From Desulfovibrionaceae bacterium (lineage in GTDB: Bacteria > Desulfobacterota > Desulfovibrionia > Desulfovibrionales > Desulfovibrionaceae): DNA of 64,000 nt. The DNA is taken from positions 62,001-126,000 of the forward strand of contig JAQXLA010000017.1 in NCBI GenBank assembly GCA_029011315.1, in the 5' to 3' direction. Made by a program: the position numbers and the translations under genes. How positions within the stretch are numbered: the stretch's first letter is position 1; the number at the start of each line of letters is the position of its first letter. Below, one piece after another: positions 21,996 through 24,484 of this stretch. Under the pieces are notes generated by a model that saw only the letters and a program-made list of their open reading frames with translations, was not told the DNA's origin and did not search any database.

Positions 21996-22229
21996 ATGGA
22001 TGATTTTGCAAAAGAGCTCGAGCTTGATGATGACTGTGGCGAGACAGCAGAGTTTGACGACTATGATGATGACCTATCTAAAAAAGGCTATACCGCTGAT
22101 GGATGCTGTCTTAATTCGTTAGGCATGGAGCTAGGACTTGATGGCTGTGGCCTGACAGACGACGAAAAAGAGGTCTTCTGTTCTTATAAGGGAAGGTATT
22201 ATCAAATAAATAAGAACCCCATTAGCTGA
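21996..22229 (+). CDS. Small acidic Cys-containing protein, function unknown
   Basis: A 77-residue ORF with AAGGA 9 nt before the ATG. The protein is very acidic (runs such as EFDDYDDD), with Cys at residues 14, 37, 38, 51 and 62 and repeated LGMELGLDGCGL-type hydrophobic patches in the middle. No signal peptide, helix or known family was seen. It lies in AT-rich DNA just upstream of the IS element, with different composition from menC. It could be an antitoxin-, anti-restriction- or inhibitor-like acidic protein, but nothing in the sequence proves this. The ribosome site and biased composition make a real gene likely. Confidence 0.55.
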   Translation: MDDFAKELELDDDCGETAEFDDYDDDLSKKGYTADGCCLNSLGMELGLDGCGLTDDEKEVFCSYKGRYYQINKNPIS

Positions 22230-22267
22230 CAAAGAGATACGTGTTCCCTGTTTATTTTATATTTCTA

Positions 22268-22284
22268 GGGCGTGTCTGCAAACC
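22268..22284. repeat. Left terminal inverted repeat of the IS
   Basis: GGGCGTGTCTGCAAACC, preceded by the putative target duplication TA (22266-22267). Confidence 0.9.
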
Positions 22285-22402
22285 TGAAAAAGTTTCCAAC
22301 AGCCCAAAAATTTTCTGAACCTCCAAAGCCCGAAATTGGTGATTCCGCCTGATTCGTAGGCGAAAACGCCGGAAACGGCCCTGGCTTCCCTTTAAGATTC
22401 AA

Positions 22403-22445
22403 AAAGTGGTATACTGAAGTATGGACTACTGCAGTATACCACTTT
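22403..22445 (+). promoter_or_regulatory. Perfect 14-bp hairpin with the transposase start codon in its loop
   Basis: AAAGTGGTATACTG (22403-22416) is fully complementary to CAGTATACCACTTT (22432-22445). The 15-base loop contains ATG at 22421. In insertion sequences such hairpins hide the start codon when transcription enters from outside, limiting transposase synthesis; that role is inferred here. Confidence 0.75.
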
Positions 22446-23179
22446 CTCTATAGCAGCGAATCAAGGAAATCCTGCCGACTGAAGGTTCCCCAAAGGGTGG
22501 ACGCCCTTGTGGGGAGCTGCTGACGTTCATTACCGCCTTGCTCTGGATACTCAAGACTGGCGCGCCTTGGCGAGCTCTTCCTGAGCGTTTCGGTTCCTGG
22601 AAAACAGTCTATTCTCGCTTCCGTCGATGGCTTGCCAGAGGCTATTTCGATGCCATGTTTAGCTTCTTTACAGCTACAGAATCAGACCTCGAAACAGTGA
22701 TGATTGATGGTAGCTATGTCCATGTACACCAGCACGCATCAGGAGCAAGAGGCGGTAGCGCAGGACAAGCGATCGGCGTGAGTCGCGGAGGCAAAACTAC
22801 CAAAATCCATGCAGTAGTAGATGCGCTGGGTAATCTGCTGAAATTCGTGATTACCGCTGGCAACGTGTCAGACTATCGGGAGGCAAACGGTTTGTTGGAA
22901 GAGTTCCATGACTGCGAAGTGTTGGCAGACAAGGGATATGACAATGCTCCACTGGTGGAGCAGCTTGAGGAACAAGGCTGTACAGTTGTCATTCCTTCGC
23001 GGTCGATGCGACTACAACCTCGACCATTCGATAAATACGCCTATCGTGGACGACACCTCATCGAAAACTTCTTCCAAAAAGTGAAAGCTTATCGCCGGGT
23101 GGGTACTCGGTACGATAAGCTTTCGAAAGTGTTCGGTGGGTTTGTGACGCTGGCGGCGGTGTTTATTTGGCTACATTAG
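22421..23179 (+). pseudogene. IS5-family transposase with an in-frame amber codon
   Basis: DDE transposase. Starting at ATG 22421 the frame reads ten codons (ending in PLSL), hits TAG at 22451, and then continues without interruption as QRIKEILP, KGGRP, LLWILKTGAPWR to the stop at 23179. IS5 relatives have a Trp at about this point, so a TGG to TAG change is the simplest explanation. The catalytic residues remain: Asp in MIDGSYVHVHQ, Asp in LADKGYDNAP and Glu in HLIENFFQKVKAYRR, followed by RYDKL. A shorter product from TTG at 22538 (213 residues) would keep these but lose the N-terminal DNA-binding part. There is no frameshift of the two-ORF IS427 kind. The 3' end overlaps the NYN gene by 17 bases. 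Confidence 0.8.
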
Positions 23180-23978
23180 TAGTTGCTACTTCGTTTGATA
23201 TTTTTTCTCTTATTTTATTACGAAGTCTCTTTTTTTCTTCATTGCCAAGCATTCTTTTCATTGTACTTTTTGCAATATATAGTATTTCTTTATCTATATC
23301 TTGAGGTATATACATTTTGCTTGTTGAAATTATTACCTTTTTGGACTCGTCAAGTTTTTCAAGTATATTATCTACAAGTCTGTCTATCGACGGAGGCTCT
23401 TCTGGTGTATTATTATTAACAACGATAGTCTCTTTTGCATCTACTCCATGAGCAAAACTTTCAATTTCGTTTCTGCTCCATTCCCTATTCTGGTCAACTT
23501 CTTCGCATAAAACAGGAGAGGAAGCTTTCGAGCTGTACATTTCGAGTCTATGTATTCTTACACCTAATGCCTGAGCTGCTGAAATTCCAGGTACCAAGTC
23601 TGCATCACCTGACAAAATAAGGGCGTGCGTTATGGCTTTATTTTGTGCAAGAGAAATAAGATCAGACATCAAAAGGCCATCAACACCTTTCTGTTGGCCT
23701 TCTTTGTTTATACTTCCATAACGCATTTTGATATCATCAAGTTTACAAATGGCACGATGTTGTTCACTCGGAACTCCATTAGCTCCAACCCCATCATACC
23801 AGTATATACGCAACATAGAACAAGTAGGAAATTGTTTTTCAACCTCTCTAAGTAGAGATTCACGCATAAGTTCTGCATTTAGAATAATATCTTCACGCTT
23901 TTTTCTCTCACTAAATAATATATGAGATACTTGAATCCAAAAATATCCTGCATCTACGAATACAGCAACGCGCTCCAT
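23163..23978 (-). CDS. NYN-domain (LabA/DUF88, PIN-like) putative ribonuclease
   Basis: NYN domains are Mg-dependent PIN-like nucleases, mostly acting on RNA. The 271-residue protein shows the acidic active-site pattern: VAVFVDAGYF (Asp9), QKGVDGLLMSDLISLA in the middle and LILSGDADLVPGISAAQALG, all within residues 1-165. A linker follows and then a basic helical C-terminal part containing IPQDIDKEILY and EKKRLRNKIREKI, found in other LabA-type proteins. The ATG at 23978 follows GGAG by 8 nt; an in-frame start 33 bases upstream lacks a better site. The gene is clearly AT-richer than the chromosome, lies inside the IS ends, and its final codons run antisense into the transposase gene. Confidence 0.85.
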   Translation of the reverse strand: MERVAVFVDAGYFWIQVSHILFSERKKREDIILNAELMRESLLREVEKQFPTCSMLRIYWYDGVGANGVPSEQHRAICKLDDIKMRYGSINKEGQQKGVDGLLMSDLISLAQNKAITHALILSGDADLVPGISAAQALGVRIHRLEMYSSKASSPVLCEEVDQNREWSRNEIESFAHGVDAKETIVVNNNTPEEPPSIDRLVDNILEKLDESKKVIISTSKMYIPQDIDKEILYIAKSTMKRMLGNEEKKRLRNKIREKISNEVATTNVAK

Positions 23979-23996
23979 TTCAATCACTCCATAAGG

Positions 23997-24050
23997 GAAG
24001 AAGCCTCCCAAAAGAGAGGCTTCTTCTAATTAAAAGTGTCTTTGGGACAC
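23997..24050 (-). promoter_or_regulatory. Two hairpins in the leader of the NYN gene
   Basis: GAAGAAGCCTC / GAGGCTTCTTC (23997-24007 and 24016-24026) is a perfect 11-bp stem. GTGTC / GACAC (24036-24040 and 24046-24050) is a smaller one. Both lie between the NYN promoter and its ribosome site and lack a T run on either strand, so leader structure or translational control is more likely than termination. Confidence 0.5.
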
Positions 24051-24101
24051 CGAGGTAACATCAATAAATCTGAAATTTTCAAAAAATCTTCAGATAAAAT
24101 T

Positions 24102-24130
24102 TAAATATACGCTAATCTTCAGAATGTCAA
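24102..24130 (-). promoter_or_regulatory. Promoter of the NYN gene with repeated TTCAGA half-sites
   Basis: On the minus strand: TTGACA (24130-24125), then TATATT at a 15-base spacing or TATTTA at 17. Three copies of the half-site TTCAGA/TCTGAA surround it (24069-24074 inverted, 24089-24094 and 24118-24123 direct). AATCTTCAGA occurs twice, 29 bases apart. This suggests an operator for a regulator bound around -10. Confidence 0.55.
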
Positions 24131-24422
24131 GACTACTCTAGTCGATGATAAGCAAAACAGATTATGATCCAGCCATAACAATATTTTGGGTAGCATCTCC
24201 TCTAACCAAGGATAACGTGGCAGGAAGTGCTACCAACACTCCTTCCCCTTTTTAAATAGTGTTAATATTGTTGGCTGTCAATCAGAGTGTTTAGCCACTG
24301 CTGGAAACTTTCTCTCGCAAGGGCTTTCTTTTTGTTGAATCCCACTTGGTCAAGGAAGGCTGCTTGCCGACATAGTTTAACTCAAAAGCCCCGCCTGATT
24401 TCTCAGTCGGGGCTTCGTTTTT
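24131..24422 (+). ncRNA. Candidate structured non-coding RNA inside the IS element
   Basis: About 290 bases without a convincing ORF but dense in helices. GACTA/TAGTC forms a 5-bp hairpin (24131-24143). A junction is closed by AGCC+AACAATATT (24171-24185) pairing with AATATTGTT+GGCT (24264-24276), with only a 2-base bulge. Inside, GGTAGCA/TGCTACC (24189-24195 and 24228-24234) and AACACT/AGTGTT (24235-24240 and 24258-24263) abut each other and the closing stem, giving a compact three-way junction. Then come CAGAGTG/CACTGCTG (24283-24303), GCAAG/CTTGC (24317-24321 and 24363-24367), and a final GC-rich terminator. No known RNA class was recognised. Plus-strand orientation is inferred from the terminator; no clear plus-strand promoter was found. 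Confidence 0.45.
24386..24422 (+). terminator. Intrinsic terminator at the end of the structured segment
   Basis: AAGCCCCG / CGGGGCTT (24386-24393 and 24408-24415) with inner CTGA-tttc-TCAG, followed by CGTTTTT on the plus strand. The other strand also has a T4 run, so it could act in both directions. Confidence 0.7.
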
Positions 24423-24433
24423 GGGCAGAGTAG

Positions 24434-24450
24434 GGTTTGCAGACACGCCC
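24434..24450. repeat. Right terminal inverted repeat of the IS
   Basis: GGTTTGCAGACACGCCC, the exact reverse complement of the left end, followed by TA (24451-24452). Confidence 0.9.
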
Positions 24451-24451
24451 T

Positions 24452-24484
24452 AAAAAAAGGGCATCTTCCGATGCCCTTTTTTTT
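24452..24484 (-). terminator. Intrinsic terminator of lysC
   Basis: A7-GGGCATC-TTCC-GATGCCC-T8 palindrome, active in either direction. It begins at the base pair where the IS ends, so the element lies directly against the lysC terminator. Confidence 0.9.

Follow-up and report, generated by a model that had tools for sequence, protein, structure and literature searches.

The loci of type III toxin–antitoxin systems can be recognised by a short check-list of parts, namely a promoter, a repeated RNA, a terminator and an RNase gene (PMC8860590). The RNA-antitoxin system AbiF/RCd22 of Clostridioides difficile (Rfam RF03085) has a promoter, two hairpin motifs, a terminator and a toxin gene, with no promoter between, and is borne on a prophage (PMC12373285). 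Here, we describe a locus of similar layout from a Desulfovibrionaceae bacterium, located in a window of 64,000 nucleotides (the whole stretch of DNA that was analysed), in which an RNA leader and a gene for a NYN ribonuclease lie within the ends of an insertion sequence (IS). In most relatives of the NYN gene the parts come, by sequence, in the same order as in the type III systems ToxIN, CptIN and TenpIN (PMC8860590), but the toxins there are ToxN/AbiQ-like whereas the toxin candidate here is a NYN protein, and the type III repeats are more regular and form pseudoknots whereas the NYN leaders comprise one to four imperfect hairpins. AbiF/RCd22 differs in its toxin, which is of the HEPN-type Abi_2 kind, and in its RNA motif, that of the NYN locus having no Rfam match; its function has been demonstrated, whereas that of the NYN module is a proposal.

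The protein shares its fold and catalytic aspartates with the NYN/LabA-like ribonucleases, such as VPA0982 (2qip) and a CRISPR-associated NYN nuclease (PMC11346440), but has an extra helical C-terminal domain and an RNA leader. Transporter ISs likewise hold a passenger gene between cognate IS ends (PMC3129680); the window unit differs from these in showing no sign of mobility, a broken transposase and no second copy. It has the short terminal inverted repeats (TIRs) and TA target duplication of IS427-like elements but, where these are intact, about 0.8–1.1 kb in length and hold transposase only, it is 2183 bp long, has a passenger and contains an in-frame TAG. The features are as follows.

22268–22284, plus strand: left TIR with its TA flank at 22266–22267, read from the sequence; IS relatives have the same ends
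22421–23179, plus strand: IS5-family transposase gene, from profile matches, with an in-frame TAG at 22451–22453 (codon 11), Trp in relatives
23163–23978, minus strand: NYN ribonuclease gene, 271 aa, from Pfam NYN, the predicted structure and a fold match
23997–24026, minus strand: terminator-like hairpin whose stem has 13 bp, 18 nt upstream of the NYN start; most relatives have an equivalent hairpin
24035–24051, minus strand: covarying leader hairpin GGTGTC-CCAAA-GACACT, from covariation and a covariance model
24068–24095, minus strand: first leader hairpin ATCTGAA...TTCAGAT, from folding; two hairpins are also seen in relatives, e.g. L012–L015
24104–24130, minus strand: candidate leader promoter TTGACA - 15 nt - TATATT with a short spacer, a putative assignment read from the sequence
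24128–24419, no strand assigned: helix-rich stretch, from folding, that includes a bidirectional terminator-like hairpin (about 24381–24419)
24434–24450, minus strand: right TIR with its TA flank at 24451–24452, read from the sequence

A preliminary description of this DNA had reported perfect 17-bp TIRs with TA flanks around 2183 bp, with the transposase confined to the left half, and both points hold. The left TIR, GGGCGTGTCTGCAAACC, has its exact complement at the right end (by chance, a 17-mer would be expected to find a perfect partner within about 3 kb roughly 1e-7 times), and the transposase and NYN genes enclosed by the pair are convergent. The TIRs of IS relatives in the family match the window ends with one to four mismatches. 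The transposase scores 253.7 bits against the IS5-family profile NF033580 (cut-off 110) and has the Pfam domains DDE_Tnp_1 (the DDE domain) and DUF4096. Its codon 11 is an in-frame TAG, Trp in most relatives (L021, L024, L026, L027), and a start at 22538, where the next common start codon lies, would cost about 40 residues. This makes it probable that the transposase is inactive; the IS is probably dead. To the left of the IS, 21996–22229 holds a 77-aa acidic ORF without a Pfam or NCBIfam match.

Six further genomes of the family carry relatives of the transposase, with 41–61% identity. The six IS relatives in which both ends could be measured are 821–859 bp long, carry no passenger and mostly have a CTAR target; their right TIR lies close after the transposase. 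In the window the cognate TIR is found 1.27 kb past the transposase and, because the right TIR of the relatives so closely trails the transposase stop, the native right end of the IS is missing here. Its short ends and TA target mark the unit as a degenerate, IS427-like element of the IS5 family. A second, more distant IS5-type transposase adjoins the L027 element (L027:2042–2751), and the same is seen beside L020.

Two histories are compatible with the ends of the unit: a transporter IS, once the carrier of the module and now dead, or a collapsed pair of IS copies. That a working element moves the NYN module as a passenger, in one unit, as had been proposed in the preliminary description, is improbable: perfect TIRs with TA flanks do enclose both halves, the target resembles the CTAR of the relatives and ISs of that kind are known (PMC3129680), but the transposase has its in-frame nonsense codon, the unit is single-copy in the 1.49 Mb genome rather than present at several loci, it was not found in 99 relatives and the six IS relatives, at 0.82–0.86 kb, are without a passenger. 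Two of the three findings that the preliminary description had itself named as speaking against such transport were made, in that the IS is short elsewhere and the NYN/RNA segment occurs without it, an IS5 transposase fragment being found near NYN in just 1 of 110 loci scanned, at a contig edge. It is plausible, though we would stop short of calling it probable, that the module was once flanked by two IS copies, each the source of one TIR, and that a deletion then removed the left copy's right end and almost the whole of the right copy. The missing native right end argues for such an origin, as does a 15/17-nt inverted match between left subterminal sequence (22286–22302) and 24298–24314, the score of which was seen in 0 of 300 shuffles, but this comparison was picked after the match had been seen, the match is not adjacent to the right end but 136 nt inward of it, and the right TIR has no transposase or collinear subterminal sequence alongside. 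No empty site could be demonstrated; congeners carry other genes beside aspartokinase. We take the IS to be a bystander or past vehicle of the NYN module, not its working carrier.

The gene on the opposite strand, which takes up a large share of the right half, was correctly described as an AT-rich NYN gene. G+C content is 50% in the IS, 36% in NYN and 33% in the NYN leader, and because of the drop at the border the module can be taken as foreign to the IS; the space between the transposase and the right TIR holds a horizontally acquired NYN module. At its own 3′ end the NYN gene overlaps the transposase gene, its last five codons plus stop being complementary to the 3′ end of the latter. The protein scores 36 bits against Pfam NYN (cut-off 24.2) and its predicted structure is of high confidence, with a mean pLDDT of 92.9, the best structural match being 2qip, a NYN protein, at an identity of only 12%. 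Residues D9, D100 and D125 are invariant in 58 sequences and correspond, as judged by motif, to the aspartates that form the active sites of VPA0982 and of the NYN nuclease from B. fragilis; the catalytic aspartates of the gene are thus intact.

NYN relatives in the family are 30–53% identical over the gene and none adjoins this transposase. Single-protein queries of bacterial genome contigs and viral contigs found no NYN relatives; an alignment query succeeded, yielding 233 in bacterial genomes (80 of the 233 were retrieved) and 15 in viral contigs. In phage contigs the NYN gene lies among tail or antirepressor genes, and relatives are found also on plasmids and prophages, those on rhizobial plasmids beside a RES–Xre pair. 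Most are chromosomal and have no obvious defence neighbours. The single IS5-type transposase fragment mentioned above (L093:2–160) lies about 300 bp upstream of its NYN gene. The Desulfovibrio NYN proteins of L009, L010 and L011 are 480–500 aa in length and have the C-terminal helical domain three times over.

The preliminary description had also reported a helix-rich stretch with a terminator and had suggested an RNase-plus-RNA module, possibly a toxin–antitoxin or defence unit. The stretch is real, with 24128–24380 folding strongly (z about −4 on either strand) ahead of its terminator-like hairpin, but relatives of it were found in none of Rfam, plasmids or phages, and comparison with 288 family genomes gave generic terminator-like similarity only. 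The module, too, is present, with relatives laid out in the manner of RNA-antitoxin or defence units, but the telling RNA is a different one: a minus-strand leader directly before NYN, at about 23997–24104. This leader and the in-frame transposase stop had both been missed. The window copy carries two unlike leader hairpins rather than repeats of one. It may be decaying, since the terminator-like hairpin has a weak U tail and the promoter spacer is 15 nt, and a fold test of the 60 nt before that hairpin gave a weak z of −0.6. Rfam returned only sub-threshold chance matches in the region, and the abiF motif RF03085 gave nothing at gathering score in the window and nothing at E ≤1 in the region.

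The relatives in the family share an upstream plan that runs from a TTGAC-type promoter through at least one hairpin and the terminator-like hairpin to a ribosome site and NYN. A strong hairpin ending 10–36 nt before the start is present at 71 of 100 distinct NYN loci, compared with 37 of 573 other genes at the same loci (6.5%), and a stem with at least six G–C pairs within 130 nt is found in 88 of 101 distinct leaders, compared with 9 of 303 shuffles. Relative to shuffles, the 60 nt before the terminator-like hairpin have a mean z of −1.8, against −0.1 further upstream. In the NYN clade to which the window gene belongs, the hairpin has the form GGYGYC-CCAAA-GRCRCC and occurs in one to four tandem copies (L048 has four, about ten other loci have two and others one), followed by the terminator-like hairpin. 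In this motif 98.5% of cells are paired and 19 cells are changed on both sides, against a shuffle mean of 5.8, with both-side changes at four of the six pairs. For the alpha/gamma leader class, in which MAFFT misaligned the 5′ arms, no covariation is claimed.

A degenerate pattern, GGYGYCCMRAAGRCRYY, occurred at background level genome-wide and a covariance model was therefore used instead. All 22 of its matches at E ≤0.05 in 653 kb are on the sense strand and lie upstream of NYN, a result that tests position rather than detection, the model having been trained on most of them. In the window's own genome there is one convincing match, at 24028–24054; a second falls inside a LysE-type transporter gene and was taken as chance. 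In 18 of 19 rows this class of hairpin goes together with a single NYN protein clade, which spans four phyla, these being taken from family and record names and several rows being MAGs in which binning errors are possible. Such coincidence is as expected for a cognate RNA–protein pair, and on these alignments the leader hairpin is an RNA motif that covaries and that accompanies one protein clade through several phyla. The arrangement varies. In L060, a Magnetococcales MAG, the hairpin and terminator-like hairpin occur twice, at 44–110 and 257–313, with NYN directly behind the second only; in L009 and L011 the leader and terminator lie about 100 nt from the NYN gene; some relatives (L053–L055) have just one hairpin or lack a terminator; and the L067–L080 types form a group without such a leader.

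Our best guess, held with a little less than even confidence, is that NYN is an RNase restrained by its leader RNA and acting in toxin–antitoxin or abortive infection; we favour this because of the type III and AbiF/RCd22 layout and the phage-contig and plasmid settings. The leader would be made mostly as a short RNA ending at the terminator-like hairpin, and its hairpins would bind and restrain the ribonuclease, with occasional read-through providing NYN mRNA. If the RNA disappeared, as might happen on shut-off of host transcription by a phage, unrestrained NYN would cut RNA and growth would stop. The module would then work in the manner of type III toxin–antitoxin systems or AbiF/RCd22, but with an unrelated RNase. 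Counting against this are the loci with a single hairpin or no terminator and those with no leader, the decaying look of the window copy and the mostly chromosomal location of the relatives, and a leader acting in cis would conserve much the same features.

The main rival is indeed that the leader acts in cis only, with NYN binding or cutting the hairpins of its own mRNA, or the hairpin attenuating transcription, such that NYN is kept low and in fact serves the processing or decay of RNA. We regard this as possible, if somewhat doubtful. The leader runs directly into the terminator-like hairpin and this into the gene, and the gap between hairpin and start is too short to hold a promoter. RNases that regulate themselves through leader hairpins are well known, RNase III and RNase E among them. 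The CRISPR-associated NYN nuclease, moreover, trims RNA and does not kill (PMC11346440). An independent RNA, however, fits better with the spread on prophages and plasmids, and the tandem copies of the hairpin, the second hairpin-plus-terminator copy of L060 with no NYN directly behind it and the approximately 100 nt separating leader and terminator from the gene in L009 and L011 also speak against a role solely in cis.

For the family at large, the reading of the RNase as RNA-restrained leads to a suggestion that we offer with some reserve, namely that a widespread and undescribed family of more than 200 loci, in several phyla and on plasmids and prophages, may use hairpin repeats and a terminator as the RNA antitoxin of NYN RNases, which would constitute a new toxin class in type III-like toxin–antitoxin or abortive infection. 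In the literature covered, which was mostly open-access, no description was found that links NYN to type III systems, to defence RNAs or to structured RNAs. The IS itself adds just one probable relic of a passenger-bearing IS. Even if the leader acts only in cis, it provides a covarying RNA motif that is absent from Rfam and belongs to one protein clade in several phyla. If the RNA-antitoxin reading is true, one more RNase fold would have arrived at the RNA-antitoxin principle, and this in a NYN family common enough for direct testing, and short leader hairpins would offer a way to find such systems.
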